A stretch of 58,925 nt of DNA from an uncultured Ruminococcus sp. (lineage in GTDB: Bacteria; Bacillota; Clostridia; Oscillospirales; Acutalibacteraceae): assembly GCA_902786345.1 (NCBI GenBank), contig CADACB010000031.1, positions 1 through 58,925 on the forward strand. Direction: 5' to 3'. Positions 4,920 through 25,321 of this stretch are shown piece after piece (within the stretch, counting starts at the first letter, position 1; each line of letters starts with the position of its first letter). Made by a program: the position numbers and the translations under genes. The notes below the pieces were generated by a model. The model made no database searches and was not told where the DNA came from. It saw only the letters and a list, made by a program, of their open reading frames with translations.

Positions 4920-5754
4920 TTGATTATAAAAAAAGTAAAAGCAATTCTTTTGGCTGCGGCTATGATGGTGTCATTGGCATCGTGCTCTGTGCAAGAGTCT
5001 GAGAAAAGCAAGGAACAGCATGATAATGACAGAGAAACGGTATATCAGGTTGCATTGTTACAATCCTTGACTCAGGGTTACTATGACGGCATCATAAAAG
5101 TGAGTGAACTGAAAAAACACGGCGACATTGGTATAGGAACCTTTGATTGAGGGAGTCAACGGTGAAATGATTGTACTGGATGGAAAGGTCTATCAGGCAC
5201 TCGGCGACGGTACGGTTCAGGAAGCGGATGAAAGCGAAACAGTCCCGTTTTCCAATGTAACCTTCTTTGATATAGACGGAAGTGAGGAACTTTCCGATAT
5301 AGGTGATGTTAACGCTTTAAAGGAGAAACTTACTTCTATAGTCGAGACAAACGGCAAAAATCTATTCTACTTTGTAAAAGTAAGCGGTACGTTCAATGAG
5401 ATGAATGTCCGCAGCGAATTAAAGCAGGAGAAGCCCTACAGATCGCTTGACAAGGCGCTCGCAACCGACCAGAGAGAGTTCAAATATGAGAATATCAGCG
5501 GCACCGTTGTTGCTCTGTACTGCCCCGACTATATGGACGGACTGAACACCCCTGGCTGGCATTTCCATTTTGTATCCGATGACAGAACTAAGGGCGGTCA
5601 TATTCTTGACCTTAAATTCGATAAAGCAACAGCAGAGTATGATGCTACGCCTGAATTTGAGATGTGTCTGACTGATAATGATGGTTTCCAGAAGATGGAT
5701 CTTGCAAAGGATGTCACCGCTGCGATCAGGAAAGTTGAAACCAACGAGGAATAA
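4920..5754 (+). pseudogene. alsD: Acetolactate decarboxylase, lipoprotein form, frameshifted
   Basis: Acetolactate decarboxylase converts alpha-acetolactate to acetoin. The first frame (4920-5150) has a lipoprotein signal ending in LASC and the family motif VYQVALLQSLTQGYYDG...GDIGIGTF. The second (5143-5754) continues with EGVNGEMIVLDGKVYQALGDG and the active-site region GWHFHFVSDDRTKGGHILDL, whose histidines bind Zn. The break is a perfect 4-bp tandem duplication, TTGA-TTGA at 5143-5150. Removing one copy gives GTFEGVNGEM, exactly the family consensus, so the gene was intact until this slip. Start is TTG at 4920 with only a weak ribosome-binding site. The product would be secreted and membrane-anchored, as for some known secreted acetolactate decarboxylases. 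Confidence 0.9.
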
Positions 5755-18022: not shown

Positions 18023-21000
18023 CTAACGCTTCGGCTCTACCCATATTTCCTGTGTTACGCAGGCAAGTTTTTCGTCCTGATCAACTGCAAGAACATATAT
18101 AGTGTACGCACCGGGTTGATCCGGTACTTTAAATGTAGCTTTGCCGTTTTCTGAATAATCCTGAATGTAATATTCTTTTCCGTAGCGGAAATAATAGAAT
18201 ATATAGCCATAAGGCTCAGTACCGTTTTCTGCTTGGATGTTCAGATCTATCTTGTCTCCTGCGGCAATTGTTGAATAGGGAGTGGTAATGTTAAAGCTTT
18301 TAATGTTTAAACCAGGTGTGGCATTTGCGAAAAATTCGGTATAACTGTATTCGCTGCCGTTGGTTTTACAAAGTATAACCTGATACCGTCCTGGTTCGCC
18401 GATGGTCCATTTAAATTCACCTGTAACAAGACCGGTTTTGGGATTTATCACTCCTGTATTTGCAGAAATTTTTTTGCGGTCATATTCTTTATTATCCCGA
18501 AAAATTATAAGATCATAGTTTGTTTTAAAGTCACCAAATTCTTCCGTATATACAGATTCTACATCAGTATCTGTACCGAATGTGGTTTGACCGTTTTTGC
18601 TGACAAATGATTTCAGATTTGATTTGTGATCGGCAACATTAACTTCAAAGTCTGTTGTTACTGTATTGTCAGTATAGTCGCTCGAATATACAGTTACTTT
18701 GTAATCTCCCGGACGATCAAATACATATGCGTTGTTTTTGCCGCCATATAAGGAATCGGTTATAGTGACGTTTTCGCTTCGGTCGTCACCATACAATCCG
18801 TCAAAAACCATTTCTCCTGTAGTGAGGTTGGTGACGGTATATTTGTATTTGTAGGGGGCAATACCACCGGTTGATTCAGCGTTTAATACAAGGCTTTGTC
18901 CCAGTCCTTTTTTTGTGGTGTCAATAGTTACGGTACTGTTAAAATTTTCGATATGCTGTTGATTATCAAAGAAATTATCTCCGGGATGAACTACATAGTG
19001 GAGTCCGTTGTTTGAATCGTAGTTTGATAGCTTATCGTAGAAAAATACATATGCATTATCATATTCTCCGAGATCTATCATATACTTGTGAGTGTATCCG
19101 CGTGTAAGCCGAGTTTTTTCCATATCGGCAGATTTATATCCCGAGGTACGGTCTGTGAAATAATATCTTATTTCAGAGTTTTCAAATCCTCTGTGATAAA
19201 CATTTGCATATCGTGTATATTTATCAGAGAATGTAATTGACGTTGAACCTGTTTTTAGATTTTGCGGCAGTGTGCCGACAGGTTTATATATCCTGTAGTT
19301 TTTCTCATCACAAAGATAGAAATCGGAAATGGAAAGTGATTTACCGTTGTTTTCATTATGTGAAAATTTAACTGTCCATTTTACTTTGGTGTAGTCATCA
19401 GCTCCTAACTTTTCCATCAAAGGATGAAGACTATAGATAAAATGAATGTATTCATCAGGATTTTCGTAGTTAAGGAGACTTGAATGAATGTCTGAATCTG
19501 CTTTACGGTTGTACAAATCTATGCATTCAGTGATTTCGTTGTCGTTGTAAGAACCGGTAAGAGTGATGATGCTGTGGTTACGGTCGTCTGTTTTTTCAGA
19601 ATATTTCAGAAATGCGTATGGTTTTTCGTCTTCTTCCGGTATCATCTTAATTCCGGTTATACTGTATAAGCCATAAAGACATTCCTTATTCTGTGATGAA
19701 TCGGTGACGGTGGAATACATATTTAGAGCATCATATGACATCCATATGTAACCGTCATTGCCATCGCTCCAGTCTGTACCATATGAATTGGCTATTTTGA
19801 AAGCACCCATTTCACCGCTGTCAACTATTCCGTTATTGTTTATATCAGCCCAGATATTATCATCATATCCAACAATTGTGATTAAATGAGATCCTGTGCT
19901 TTTATCTATTCTGACAATGCACGATTCACCAACAGTGTTCTTGTTTATTATTGGATCGTCAGAAGTTTTCAGCCTGCATTTAGTGTATTTCGTGAAATAC
20001 GTGCTTGCGGTAAGTATGTTTCCGTCAGCAAGTGCAGCCTTTATCGGCATAACGCCTGGATCATCAACAGACTTAATGGTTTGTGATTCATTGTATGTAA
20101 GAAAAGTGAAAAAGCTTTTTATCCTGTGGTCAACTGCAAATCTGTAAGTTTCTTCGTCAGACGGTAGAACATAATGATATGAGTCATTCTGAATAGTGTT
20201 ATAAACATCCTGACCGAAAGGCATATATTCCCTTGTTACAGCTCCGAAAGCAGCTGTGCGGTTATAGATAACATTCGAATTAATACCCGCAACTGATGTA
20301 CCGTCGATCAAATCATAAGTGAACCTTGGGGAGAATATGTTATTATAGGTGGTTGGAATATTGTGGTATTTATTGTACATATATGTGTATGTATAATATA
20401 TAGTTCCGTGTACAGAACAGGTAGGTCCAACCTGATTTATGATTGGCGGAAAATATTCTGATTTGCTGTTATCTACAGATTTCGGCAAAACTTCTATAGG
20501 AGTATAGTTTTCGTCGTCTTCACTTGCAACAGTATAGTAATCATCAAGATTTCTTATTGTTTTTTTAATACCGTCTACCTGAACTGCCTCAGGAAATTCT
20601 TCTGTAGGCGGATTAAGAGGATCGTGAACAGCTTTTGTCACTGTGAGAGGAAGATCTTTATTTACAATATTACCGCTCTGGTCCTTTGCCTTTACTCTTA
20701 CTGTATAAGAGGTTGCTGCCTTTGGTGTTACTGTAGCAGAGGATACTGTGGAATATCCCTTTACTCTGGTCCAGGTTGATTGTGAGTTTTGTTTGTAATA
20801 TACCGCAAACTCTGATATACCTGTTCCGTTTGAAGACAGGCAGTTAACATTTACACTCTTTCCGAGGGTTATGGAGCTTGCAGAAAGTGTAGATTGATTT
20901 TTAAGATCGGACTTTTTTCTAACCGTAAGGGGAAGGTCTTTATTGGCTATCTTGCCGCTTGAGTCTTTTGCCTTTATCCTTATAGTGTATGAGGTTACAG

Positions 21001-22483
21001 CCTTTGGTTTTACTGAAGCTGTTGTGGATGAAGAATAATCCTTCACCTTAGTCCACGTTGACTGTGAATCCTGCTTGTAATAAACGGCATATTCAGCCTT
21101 GCCGGTTCCGCCAACTGATGAGCAGTTTACATTTACGCTGCTGCCGAAATTTATTGAATTTGCAGACAGTGAAGATGTATTTGTAAGCTTTTTTGTTACG
21201 CTGAGAGGAATATCTTTGTTGACAATCTTGCCGCTTTCATCCTTTGCTTTAACCCTTATAGTATAGGATGTGGCAGATTTTGGAGTGACGCTGACTTTAG
21301 TATCTGCTGAATAGTCGCTGACCTTTGACCATGTGGTCTGTTTATTCTGCTTGTAATAGACAGCATACTGCACCGCACCTATACCATCGGCTGATTTACA
21401 GTTGACAGTCACGCTGTTTCCGAGCACAATAGTGTCTGCTGATGATGCTGACGTGTTTTTAAGATCAGATTTGACTATAGTTCCGCCTATTCTTGCGAAC
21501 TTGCAGGTGAGATGATCGTTATCCTTAGCTTCAAGGTCTTTTGATCCCACATTATCGTGCATAGAAACATCATAGGGAAGGCTGTCTATACCTGATTTAC
21601 CACCGGTTGCAACAACAGAAATGCCGATACCGTTAAGCCTTACATCATCGACCGTAAGACCAAGCTTGTCCAGCGGAACGGACACTTCATAATGATAGTC
21701 CCTTGAAGCGCTGTCGTGCCCTTTTTTGCTGAAGTTCACCCATTCGGAATCGTTACTGAAAATATCATTTACATCGCGGTTATCAATGCCATTTATTCCG
21801 TAAACACTCTTACTGAGTATGCCATCGCCGTATTTCATACGTATACCAGAAGCAGTGCCCTCAAACATAGCAGAGGGGTTAATTCCGCCGCTGTTTCCGC
21901 AATAAATAGCGGCAGGAAGCTTATTGTCTGAATATACAGTAATGATTCTGTTGACGTCGTTTTCAAAGGAGATACCAAGATCAATAAGGGTATCACCGAA
22001 ATGTGTTTTGCAGTTGTTGCCTATTTTGTCGTCTTTGCCTGTATCTATCGCGATAATGAACGGATATGTACCCACGTTGTACATTTTGTCGGTTTCTTGG
22101 GTGAGTGTTTTTGTAGATACGGCATCCAGGACGTCTGTCATTTCCCACATCAGGTAAAGATTGTCTTCATCATACGCACCATATAGCGTATACAAATCCT
22201 GAGCAGGACGGTTTGCGGTTTCTGAGTTGTATACATTGGGATCATCATTTGCCGCACCCTGTGCAATGATCATTGAGCTTTCCCAGTCAGAAAGGTCATC
22301 ATAGAATGCTACAGTTTTTTCGAATCCGTTGCCTGTTGCATTTGTAGTATAGTATCTTGCAAGCTTTTTGTTATTGGCTGTATTTTCGGCATACGCTGCT
22401 GTTCCACCGGGCAAGAGCATGCCAACCGATAAAGCTGCTGCAAGAGTTATACTTAAAATACGCTTGGTTGATTGTTTGTACAT
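18023..22483 (-). CDS. Large secreted C1-family (papain-like) cysteine protease with Ig-like repeats
   Basis: A 1486-residue protein with a Sec signal peptide (cleavage about residue 32). Residues 33-335 resemble a family-9 carbohydrate-binding or DOMON-like beta domain (YDDLSDWESSMI, DLYTLYGAYDEDNLYLMWEM). Residues 341-614 are three about 90-residue repeats, each with YAVYYKQ and SYTIRVKAKD, like triple-tyrosine or Ig-like modules. The papain domain spans about 670-920 with Gln684, Cys689 (NQVGPTC), His866 (GSHLITIVGYDD) and Asn899 (ANSYGTDW). Between His and Asn sits a perfect EF-hand loop, DINNNGIVDSGE (880-891). Further beta modules follow to the C-terminus. No cell-wall anchor is seen, so the protein is probably released or bound by its modules. 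GGAGG precedes ATG 22483. Substrate unknown. Confidence 0.88.
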   Translation of the reverse strand: MYKQSTKRILSITLAAALSVGMLLPGGTAAYAENTANNKKLARYYTTNATGNGFEKTVAFYDDLSDWESSMIIAQGAANDDPNVYNSETANRPAQDLYTLYGAYDEDNLYLMWEMTDVLDAVSTKTLTQETDKMYNVGTYPFIIAIDTGKDDKIGNNCKTHFGDTLIDLGISFENDVNRIITVYSDNKLPAAIYCGNSGGINPSAMFEGTASGIRMKYGDGILSKSVYGINGIDNRDVNDIFSNDSEWVNFSKKGHDSASRDYHYEVSVPLDKLGLTVDDVRLNGIGISVVATGGKSGIDSLPYDVSMHDNVGSKDLEAKDNDHLTCKFARIGGTIVKSDLKNTSASSADTIVLGNSVTVNCKSADGIGAVQYAVYYKQNKQTTWSKVSDYSADTKVSVTPKSATSYTIRVKAKDESGKIVNKDIPLSVTKKLTNTSSLSANSINFGSSVNVNCSSVGGTGKAEYAVYYKQDSQSTWTKVKDYSSSTTASVKPKAVTSYTIRIKAKDSSGKIANKDLPLTVRKKSDLKNQSTLSASSITLGKSVNVNCLSSNGTGISEFAVYYKQNSQSTWTRVKGYSTVSSATVTPKAATSYTVRVKAKDQSGNIVNKDLPLTVTKAVHDPLNPPTEEFPEAVQVDGIKKTIRNLDDYYTVASEDDENYTPIEVLPKSVDNSKSEYFPPIINQVGPTCSVHGTIYYTYTYMYNKYHNIPTTYNNIFSPRFTYDLIDGTSVAGINSNVIYNRTAAFGAVTREYMPFGQDVYNTIQNDSYHYVLPSDEETYRFAVDHRIKSFFTFLTYNESQTIKSVDDPGVMPIKAALADGNILTASTYFTKYTKCRLKTSDDPIINKNTVGESCIVRIDKSTGSHLITIVGYDDNIWADINNNGIVDSGEMGAFKIANSYGTDWSDGNDGYIWMSYDALNMYSTVTDSSQNKECLYGLYSITGIKMIPEEDEKPYAFLKYSEKTDDRNHSIITLTGSYNDNEITECIDLYNRKADSDIHSSLLNYENPDEYIHFIYSLHPLMEKLGADDYTKVKWTVKFSHNENNGKSLSISDFYLCDEKNYRIYKPVGTLPQNLKTGSTSITFSDKYTRYANVYHRGFENSEIRYYFTDRTSGYKSADMEKTRLTRGYTHKYMIDLGEYDNAYVFFYDKLSNYDSNNGLHYVVHPGDNFFDNQQHIENFNSTVTIDTTKKGLGQSLVLNAESTGGIAPYKYKYTVTNLTTGEMVFDGLYGDDRSENVTITDSLYGGKNNAYVFDRPGDYKVTVYSSDYTDNTVTTDFEVNVADHKSNLKSFVSKNGQTTFGTDTDVESVYTEEFGDFKTNYDLIIFRDNKEYDRKKISANTGVINPKTGLVTGEFKWTIGEPGRYQVILCKTNGSEYSYTEFFANATPGLNIKSFNITTPYSTIAAGDKIDLNIQAENGTEPYGYIFYYFRYGKEYYIQDYSENGKATFKVPDQPGAYTIYVLAVDQDEKLACVTQEIWVEPKR

Positions 22484-23372: not shown

Positions 23373-23427
23373 AAAAACCATCTGCTGCACAGTGTGTTGA
23401 TCACAGCTTGTGCAGCAGATGGTTTTT
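23373..23427. terminator. Strong bidirectional terminator after the zinc-ribbon gene
   Basis: AAAAACCATCTGCTGCAC (23373-23390) and GTGCAGCAGATGGTTTTT (23410-23427) form an 18-bp perfect stem whose A- and T-runs allow termination on both strands. Confidence 0.8.
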
Positions 23428-23445
23428 GATATTGGTATAATTTTA

Positions 23446-24765
23446 TCAGAATTCGAATGGCTGGGATTCACCGCAACCGCAAGTACCTACATATTTAGGC
23501 ATAACTTTACCGCAGTTAGGGCATGTCCATGTACCATCATTGGGAACGTCTTTTCTGTTGTTGACAATTTCCTGAGCCTGTCTGAATGCTTCATCTTCTT
23601 TTGCTTTTTTACCAAAACGACGCTTTCTCTCTTCCTTGACATGCTTTGGTGCAGGCTGAGGGGAAGGGGCAGGTGAAGAATTGAAACGCATAGGTTGTGC
23701 AGCATTGTTTGCTGAATTGATGGAATTATCTTGATAAGCACCGGGTGCGTCGCTAAATTTCATAGAAGTAGGTGCTCTGTTTCCGAATCCCATAGATGCG
23801 GGAGGCTCATCGCTGAAGCGCATAGGAGCAGGAGGCGGTGCATTTTCAAAATCTAACGGCGCAAATGATGAATCCTGACTTTTAGGCTGATTGAACGACA
23901 TATCGAAAGTGCTATAGCTTTCATATGTTTCGTTCTTAGGAATATTATCATTCTTAATGAAGTCCATATTTGAATGGGTACTATCGTCCGGGACATTTAC
24001 CTGTGGATTATAACCCTGTATTGACGGCTGGACATTTTCAAACTCCGCAGCCATTTCGGGAGACACTTTATTTTGACGGCCTGTTGCTGCATTTGGGAAT
24101 ATCACTTCACTGCTGTCAGCAGGCTCTGATGATTCAAACTCAAATGGCTTAGGCTCACCGCAACCGCAAGTACCAACATAGTTAGGCATAATCTTTCCGC
24201 AGTTCGGGCATGTCCATGTGTTAGAACCGGAGCTTGGCACAGGACTTGAGGTTTCAGGTTTCTTTTTACTAAAGAATGACTTAGATTCTTTTATGTTTTC
24301 TCTTCTGGGTCCCGGCTTTGCAGAAGGTTTATTTTCAGACCTTGCACTGACAGAAGTATCGGCAGAATCAGCCGGAACAGGAGGTTCAAATTCAAATGGT
24401 TTAGGCTCACCGCAACCGCAAGTACCAACATAATTAGGCATAATCTTACCGCATGCCGGACAGGTCCATGTATCTGAACGCTGCTCAAGAACGTCAACCT
24501 TTTTCTTTCCGAATATATTGGTCTTTTCTGTAACAGTGGAATTCTGAACCGGAGCAGCAGGAACAGCGGCTTCTGTCTTAGCAGGAGCAAAAGGCTTTCT
24601 GGCATTGCCTGCACTGACAGAAGTATCGGCAGAATCAGCCGGAACAGGAGGTTCAAACTCAAATGGTTTAGGCTCACCGCAACCGCAAGTACCAACATAA
24701 TTAGGCATAATCTTACCGCATGCCGGACAGGTCCATGTATCTGAACGCTGCTCAAGAAACATCAA
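23446..24765 (-). CDS. Zinc-ribbon repeat protein (downstream part of a frameshifted Dabb/zinc-ribbon gene)
   Basis: An open frame of 439 codons with four near-identical zinc ribbons (WTCPxCGKIMPNYVGTCGCG, Cys-x2-Cys-x10-Cys-x-Cys) at about residues 15-35, 105-125, 185-210 and 412-437. Each is followed by a PFEF segment and separated by low-complexity Pro/Ser/Ala/Lys linkers. The C-terminal ribbon ends the protein. The start is only an apparent one (ATG 24762 in MFLEQRSD, no ribosome-binding site): the frame is the continuation of the Dabb gene upstream, separated by one inserted T. Function unknown. Metal binding by the ribbons is inferred from the four cysteines each. Confidence 0.75.
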   Translation of the reverse strand: MMFLEQRSDTWTCPACGKIMPNYVGTCGCGEPKPFEFEPPVPADSADTSVSAGNARKPFAPAKTEAAVPAAPVQNSTVTEKTNIFGKKKVDVLEQRSDTWTCPACGKIMPNYVGTCGCGEPKPFEFEPPVPADSADTSVSARSENKPSAKPGPRRENIKESKSFFSKKKPETSSPVPSSGSNTWTCPNCGKIMPNYVGTCGCGEPKPFEFESSEPADSSEVIFPNAATGRQNKVSPEMAAEFENVQPSIQGYNPQVNVPDDSTHSNMDFIKNDNIPKNETYESYSTFDMSFNQPKSQDSSFAPLDFENAPPPAPMRFSDEPPASMGFGNRAPTSMKFSDAPGAYQDNSINSANNAAQPMRFNSSPAPSPQPAPKHVKEERKRRFGKKAKEDEAFRQAQEIVNNRKDVPNDGTWTCPNCGKVMPKYVGTCGCGESQPFEF

Positions 24766-24826
24766 CCTTTTTCTTTCCGAATATATTGGTTTTTTCTGTA
24801 ACAGTGGAATTCTGAACCGGAGCAGC
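24344..24826 (-). repeat. 267-bp in-frame tandem duplication carrying the frameshift
   Basis: The segment from about 24344 to 24558 is repeated almost perfectly at 24611 to 24826, period 267 bp (89 codons), covering a zinc ribbon plus the linker AAPVQNSTVTEKTNIFGKKK. The upstream copy has GTTTCTTGAG where the downstream copy has GTTCTTGAG: one extra T, which creates the stop of the Dabb frame. Very few other differences are visible, so the duplication is recent. Confidence 0.85.
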
Positions 24827-25321
24827 CACAGACTTTGAAACCTCGGTAGCGGTCATTTTAGCAGCCGGTTTTGAAACCTTAGCAGCAGTCTCTTTAGCAT
24901 CTGGTTTTGAAACTTCAATTACAGGTTTTTTAGCGACAGGTTTTTCTACTGTGATCTCAGGCTTGACGTTTTCTTTTATTTCCGGCGCATCCGGAACTTC
25001 GTCAAAAGGTCTTGACTGTGTTATTTCTTCCTCATAAAAATAATCAGCAGCAACGCGTGCTTCGGTAATTTTTTCGATGAAATCCTTGCATTTAATATGC
25101 TCAGGATGGTTTTGATAGTATTTAAGTGCAGCGGCATTTTTTAGTGCTGCATACAATACAACGTCGTAATCGGACGAAGTATTGAAGTTATAGCCCATCT
25201 CAACAGATACAAGTCCGTCAATTTTTCCGACAAGATTTGTAAGCATATCTATCATATGGTCTATATTTTGTTGTTTGTCATTGCTGTCTTTGATTTTCCA
25301 AAAGACTATATGTTTGACCAT
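24752..25321 (-). CDS. Dabb (stress-responsive A/B barrel) domain protein, upstream part of a frameshifted gene
   Basis: Residues 1-98 form a Dabb-type alpha/beta barrel (MVKHIVFWKIKDSNDKQQNI, LVSVEMGYNFNTSSDYDVVL, YQNHPEHIKCKDFI); this family dimerises and in plants is stress-induced. Residues about 110-189 are a linker of repeated KPxAKxT/EVSKP units. The frame ends KKKVDVS-stop where, in the second copy of the duplicated segment, KKKVDVLEQRSDTW continues into a zinc ribbon. Deleting one T at about 24755-24757 joins this frame to 23446-24765, giving a protein of about 620 residues. GGAGG precedes ATG 25321. Whether the shift is real, programmed or a base-call error is open. Confidence 0.8.
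   Translation of the reverse strand: MVKHIVFWKIKDSNDKQQNIDHMIDMLTNLVGKIDGLVSVEMGYNFNTSSDYDVVLYAALKNAAALKYYQNHPEHIKCKDFIEKITEARVAADYFYEEEITQSRPFDEVPDAPEIKENVKPEITVEKPVAKKPVIEVSKPDAKETAAKVSKPAAKMTATEVSKSVAAPVQNSTVTEKTNIFGKKKVDVS

Follow-up and report, generated by a model that had tools for sequence, protein, structure and literature searches.

A gene kept across its genus encodes a repeat protein with a Dabb domain followed by a varying number of zinc fingers. The extra T that breaks the copy studied here is most likely an artefact, and the likeliest role of the protein is that of a multivalent scaffold; taken as a whole, this reading stands slightly better than evenly balanced. The gene lies on the minus strand within the window (the whole stretch of 58,925 nucleotides analysed here), and its features are as follows.

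24752..25321, minus strand: Dabb ORF of 189 residues, with the Dabb domain at residues 2–95 and then a Pro/Ala/Lys-rich linker (Pfam, AlphaFold)
23446..24765, minus strand: second open frame of 439 residues, with four zinc ribbons, a SYNPQ/IKND block, PMRF repeats and a terminal module (ORF list, AlphaFold)
24655..24744, minus strand: zinc ribbon 1
24388..24477, minus strand: zinc ribbon 2
24136..24252, minus strand: zinc ribbon 3 with flanking residues
23449..23625, minus strand: terminal module, made up of a basic FGKKAKE helix (a helix in the AlphaFold model), an NRKDVPN segment, ribbon 4 and a PFEF end
24610..24826, minus strand: 5'-side copy of a tandem duplication (ribbon 1), carrying the extra base and the stop (BLAST)
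24343..24558, minus strand: second copy of that duplication, on the 3' side, holding ribbon 2 (BLAST)
24757..24759, minus strand: one-base length difference between the copies, in an A run on the plus strand, a T run on the minus strand
23373..23427, no strand assigned: terminator-like inverted repeat directly downstream of the gene (seen by eye, unscored)

Domain architecture of the broken gene

The 189-residue Dabb frame is closed by a TGA at 24752–24754, and the 439-residue frame begins with a mechanically assigned TTG that is unlikely as a gene start. On a plain reading, the two frames form one coding chain of roughly 625 residues that is broken once. The initial annotation had described a Dabb domain fused to four zinc ribbons and broken by one inserted T, and this was borne out, the Dabb ORF being followed by the next frame, which holds all four ribbons. 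No signal peptide was seen by eye in the sequence, and the protein appears to be cytosolic as far as its sequence allows a judgement.

The N-terminal 95 residues match the Dabb family (PF07876) in both sequence and predicted fold, residues 2–95 scoring 84.1 bits against a cut-off of 25 (E = 1.1e-23) in a Pfam scan of the window that covered the best 25 of 41 families. Against PDB sequences, the domain matched 3fmb (E = 1.2e-10). AlphaFold block means were 86–97 across residues 1–90, and the predicted model has a ferredoxin-like alpha+beta fold that is backed by its PDB matches, namely 3fmb (TM by target 0.82), olivetolic acid cyclase 5b08 (0.84) and SP1 1si9, with a range of 0.79–0.84. Dabb domains form barrel dimers, and the domain here probably dimerises as well, judging from the family, a monomer being what was modelled.

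All four ribbons of the window are of the C4 type with the pattern W-T-C-P-x-C-G-K-[IV]-M-P-x-Y-V-G-T-C-G-C-G. The near-identity noted for them at first holds for ribbons 1–3 (ribbons 1 and 2 match at 27/27 compared residues, and ribbon 3 matches these at 26/27). It does not extend to the terminal ribbon, which matches the other three at 22–23/27 residues, is not a recent copy and sits in the conserved terminal module. In the AlphaFold model of the 439-residue frame, the ribbons form four compact, separately folded units (blocks 71–93) joined by low-confidence linkers, and 204 of the 439 residues score below 50.

The predicted ribbon fold is nearest to RanBP2-type fingers, which form two hairpins about a single zinc, though not significantly: in a Foldseek search with the ribbon model, run without a control fold, RanBP2-type titles made up 17 of the best 19 rows at E = 0.58–5. 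The RanBP2-type motif is W-x-C-x(2-4)-C-x3-N-x6-C-x2-C. The ribbon fits it in the Trp, the C-x2-C pair and the spacing of the third Cys, whereas its last pair is C-x-C instead of C-x2-C and the Asn is missing. Of 112 ribbons from the genus, 104 have Met at this position and none has Asn, a spurious pattern match in G063 (G numbers are our handles for genomes) and truncated or N-interrupted ribbons having been left out. Two window ribbons scanned alone with Pfam gave no PF00641 match, and two ribbons of other genera scored 17.1 and 13.6 bits against a cut-off of 27. Membership in the RanBP2-type family was rejected, both the motif and the Pfam cut-off being missed, and the likeness to PF00641 proteins (Nup358, Nup153, ZRANB2 and archaeal ArnA) lies in the predicted fold, at E of 0.58 or above among the top Foldseek titles. 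PMC6509490 describes ArnA as having a RanBP2-type finger. PDB sequence searches with the ribbon profiles returned short partial matches only, and in NCBIfam no family scored above its cut-off.

Distribution, layout and homogenisation in the genus

A piece of the gene was found in 52 of the 64 genomes of the genus, including all 26 of good quality (at least 90% complete, at most 5% contaminated). Either half matched 54 genomes, and two of them, G028 and G033, were removed as other proteins on reading. The 12 genomes without any piece are all below 90% completeness. A Dabb domain of the window type occurs in 39/64 genomes (22/26 of good quality); the four good-quality genomes without the Dabb half (G007, G018, G019 and G052) contain the C-terminal half. 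The protein removed from G028 (L113 1094-1201) also has ribbons of a similar general style, two in number and shorter, with the pattern W-x-C-x-C-G...C-x-C.

Outside the genus, Dabb matches were weaker (E = 2.3e-26 or worse in a search of 149 genomes). The two that were read, in G081 and G098, are frames of 95 and 98 residues holding Dabb alone, whereas the four intact genus copies add a tail of about 420–840 residues. The terminal-module query gave one weak match outside the genus (G089, E = 9.6e-6). The ribbon profile matched 17 of 394 genomes of the order, two of them from this genus, and all four of its matches in the window's own genome lie inside this gene. Fourteen out-of-genus ribbon loci were fetched, ten of which contained a ribbon frame; eight of the ten carry one ribbon, in six cases at or near the frame end, and the two loci with several ribbons, in low-complexity proteins, belong to one sister genus. 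No Dabb domain was seen by eye in these ten frames. The ribbons of other genera follow W-x-C-x2-C-G-x2-N-x6-C-x-C, and align with the genus ribbon at the Trp, the Gly, the Tyr and all four Cys; they carry the Asn (9/10 aligned), in contrast to the mostly Met-bearing ribbons of the genus (104/112). No family name was found for this out-of-genus ribbon. A 2094-residue open frame of the sister genus (L168, G334:C77:12000-26000) is of low complexity; it combines extended charged segments with several ribbons of the pattern W-x-C-x2-C...C-x-C.

Among the relatives searched, the fusion of Dabb and ribbon was seen solely in this genus, and it was absent from the family libraries searched (the best 25 of 41 families in the window Pfam scan), so that the architecture, unfamiliar at first sight, proved unfamiliar in these sources as well. 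Literature searches linking Dabb with a zinc ribbon returned unrelated work only, judged by title; those for 'Dabb domain' returned plant work throughout, and those for zinc ribbons and concerted evolution found none. The survey of homologues proposed in the initial annotation showed a varying ribbon number and a Dabb domain at the start of all eight copies that were assembled through, the opposite of the refuting outcome named there, a constant ribbon number in homologues that lack Dabb. This is a real genus-wide gene with an unusual architecture.

The usual layout is a Dabb domain, a Pro/Ala-rich linker that differs between genomes, a varying number of fingers, the SYNPQ/IKND block, PMRF repeats of the kind APMRFDD, and the terminal module with the last finger. 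The ribbon units read FGKKK...VTPLEQRSDTWTCPxCGK. In some copies (e.g. G004, G011, G017, G024 and G030), the SYNPQ/PMRF block stands ahead of the ribbons. Most relatives that were read share the terminal module (basic helix, NRKDVPN, ribbon and PFEF stop); among 36 genomes whose last ~60 residues were collected, the helix and NRKDVPN part is missing in six (G001, G023, G037, G042, G045 and G048). The neighbourhood is kept mainly on the upstream side, where DUF6465 or its small neighbour was found in 13 of the 16 N-half loci tested and was not found in the stretch searched at G058, G044 and G002. The nusG-rplK-rplA region is kept in all four loci reaching that far (G049, G026, G062 and G023). 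Seven C-half loci had no common downstream genes, save one weak match in G008. The NusG proteins of G062 (L062 4193-4822) and G023 (L068 5108-5746) align to the window NusG at only 43–45% over a longer stretch, as though they contained an insertion.

The four intact copies (G006, G044, G046 and G049) have 934, 661, 517 and 567 residues, with 6, 4, 3 and 3 ribbons, respectively. Synonymous-codon identity of internal ribbons averaged 0.757 within genomes (52 pairs, 20 genomes) and 0.493 between genomes (2576 pairs), and the highest value among 500 shufflings of the genome labels was 0.541. Internal and terminal ribbons of the same genome reached 0.604, a rough control for common codon usage. Eighteen of the 20 genomes with at least two internal ribbons exceed 0.493, one of them barely (G052, 0.53), and G005 (0.33) and G051 (0.48) lie below it. 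The internal fingers are thus homogenised in most genomes, not in all. The codon likeness of internal ribbons within a genome indicates that they were recently copied or converted and that the terminal ribbon is older, and we infer that recombination between repeats drives the copying and homogenisation. The earlier proposal of an array expanding by recombination is consistent with the varying finger number and the homogenised internal fingers, and it fails for the last ribbon, which is not a recent copy. The family represents a bacterial case of concerted evolution in a small zinc-finger module.

The extra T and the assembly of the array

The tandem duplication in the window copy is real, its two copies aligning over 217 columns with three mismatches and one 1-base gap (98.2% identity, E = 8e-106, period 267, by BLAST) and sharing a longest exact stretch of 100 bp. 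The near-perfect 89-codon, 267-bp unit described at first needs to be narrowed, since about 217 bp per 267-bp unit are common to both copies and the ~51 bp between them are not. BLAST picked up this duplication, whereas it was missing from the default tandem-repeat scan, whose sole entry within the gene was a 36-bp array of 2.3 copies in whole codons. The single extra base in the 5'-side copy shifts the frame immediately ahead of a finger, with substitutions nearby. Contrary to the initial description, the frame does not end at the repeat border: the stop at 24752–24754 sits about 72 bp inside the copy.

Assemblies tend to end at this gene. In 31 of 39 genomes, the window included, the contig stops no more than 2 kb downstream of the point where Dabb begins (7.3 expected); over the same distance upstream, 0/39 have a contig end. 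Fourteen of the 31 cut N-halves hold at least one whole ribbon and 17 stop earlier, in the linker or the first ribbon, indicating that fingers alone are insufficient and that the low-complexity linkers also matter. The end of the N-half contig recurs exactly in the C-terminal half over 77 bp in G020, G026 and G042 and over 84 bp in G047 and G048, as expected for a break of a k-mer graph; seven further genomes have exact end repeats of 17–55 bp, and 19/31 have none in the sequence searched. According to PMC5830445, a 2018 rumen RUG set (its list includes RUG291) used Illumina reads, assembled with MEGAHIT and IDBA-UD. One half or both are kept in every good-quality genome, yet most assemblies cut the gene, so gene catalogues will tend to list its pieces.

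Besides the four intact copies, the eight that were assembled through comprise four that are frame-broken within a repeat unit (the window, G004, G034 and G058). The breaks in G034 (83 bp at 98.8%, offset 76; 78 bp by a second comparison), G058 (75 bp at 97.3%, offset 74; 65 bp by a second comparison) and G004 (47 bp exact, offset 47) are out-of-frame duplications and look like misjoins or unmerged overlaps of contig ends. The window break is of another kind, with one base involved. Given these misjoin-like breaks elsewhere and the contig ends at the gene, the extra T is probably artefactual, a local error of assembly or consensus in a rarely crossed repeat.

A general tendency of the assembly to indel errors, as the cause of the T, was unsupported as far as checked. 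In 20 stretches of 20 kb taken from this genome, 93 adjacent-ORF junctions were listed (1- and 4-base overlaps left out). Fifteen of them, mostly picked because the start was weak or a ribosome site was missing, were tested with Pfam: none of the nine informative junctions was a split gene, and the other six had one side without a Pfam match. With general indel errors not shown in this set, the break could be real. It would then be a frame break of one allele, a pseudogene or decaying copy whose strain makes only the 189-residue Dabb protein, which we consider rather unlikely. Consistent with such an allele, the three substitutions between the copies mean that the assembler told them apart, and the window contains another frame-broken gene, outside any repeat, for alpha-acetolactate decarboxylase (4920-5150 and 5143-5754, plus strand; consecutive matches to PF03306 positions 1–36 and 36–218). 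The C-terminal half of G055 ends its frame without the terminal module, and G020 has an in-frame stop ahead of the terminal finger, suggesting that damaged alleles may exist; two contigs of G020 (L118 and L134) carry like C-terminal halves with this same stop. However, the 439-residue frame and its terminal module are intact behind the stop in the window, and none of the 26 good-quality genomes of the genus lacks both halves.

On/off variation, in which changes in array length would toggle the finger part, is very improbable: four of the eight assembled-through copies are out of frame and the C-terminal half of G030 is also broken inside the array, but three of the four breaks are out-of-frame duplications of contig-overlap size, the breaks read sit at differing places, no simple-repeat tract and, by eye, no homopolymer longer than six bases was seen near the window break, and copy changes of whole units preserve the frame. 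This suggestion of the initial annotation thus gained no positive support, and array frame breaks in draft genomes should not be taken for phase variation unless reads show so.

Possible functions of the finger array

Anatomy offers the main clue to function, and a multivalent scaffold is a tentative proposal that draws on the probable dimer, the disorder, the like binding modules and the lack of a signal peptide. The ferredoxin-like Dabb domain would dimerise and hold an extended tail, disordered for the most part, in which near-identical predicted C4 fingers, differing in number between copies, stand together with the PMRF-motif stretch and, in most cases, the fixed terminal module with its finger. 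Recombination from repeat to repeat would copy the fingers and keep them alike, the frame surviving when whole in-frame units move, and the dimer could present several like fingers to one partner, binding it with an avidity that depends on how many copies there are. The true arrays may exceed the assembled ones, because assemblies break in most copies.

PMC10636164 describes eight small fingers arranged in tandem within a flexible part of Nup358. The likeness would be one in the way of working only, with no common ancestry shown. It is a speculative and rather doubtful extension that the family is a bacterial counterpart of such finger-array scaffolds, in which rapid gain and loss of RanBP2-like fingers would tune valency, and hence condensation or partner avidity, between strains. 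To our knowledge, bacteria have no Ran.

Alternatively, the Dabb domain could be an active enzyme, cyclase- or lyase-like, with a tail that only localises it. Four residues of the domain, His4, Tyr69, His72 and His75, do not vary across 39 Dabb sequences, and both olivetolic acid cyclase and a hydroxynitrile lyase are among the matches of the predicted structure. On the other hand, the HPxH stretch also occurs in the solved Dabb-like chains 3fmb and 3bgu, whose function is unknown, and no pathway was recognised among the few neighbours scanned, so that we regard an enzyme as unlikely. A zinc buffer, with one zinc per finger and the array as a metal store, is less probable still: the cysteines are invariant in the aligned ribbon rows and each chain has several fingers, but conservation in the ribbon region extends past the cysteines to W, Y, PF, PMRF, SYNPQ and ND, and C4 zinc sites are usually tight and slow to exchange.

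Elsewhere in the window, the minus-strand frame at 18023-22483 encodes a 1486-residue protein that is probably secreted, judging by its start, and contains Y_Y_Y/Fn3-like repeats and, by eye, a region resembling papain-type cysteine proteases.
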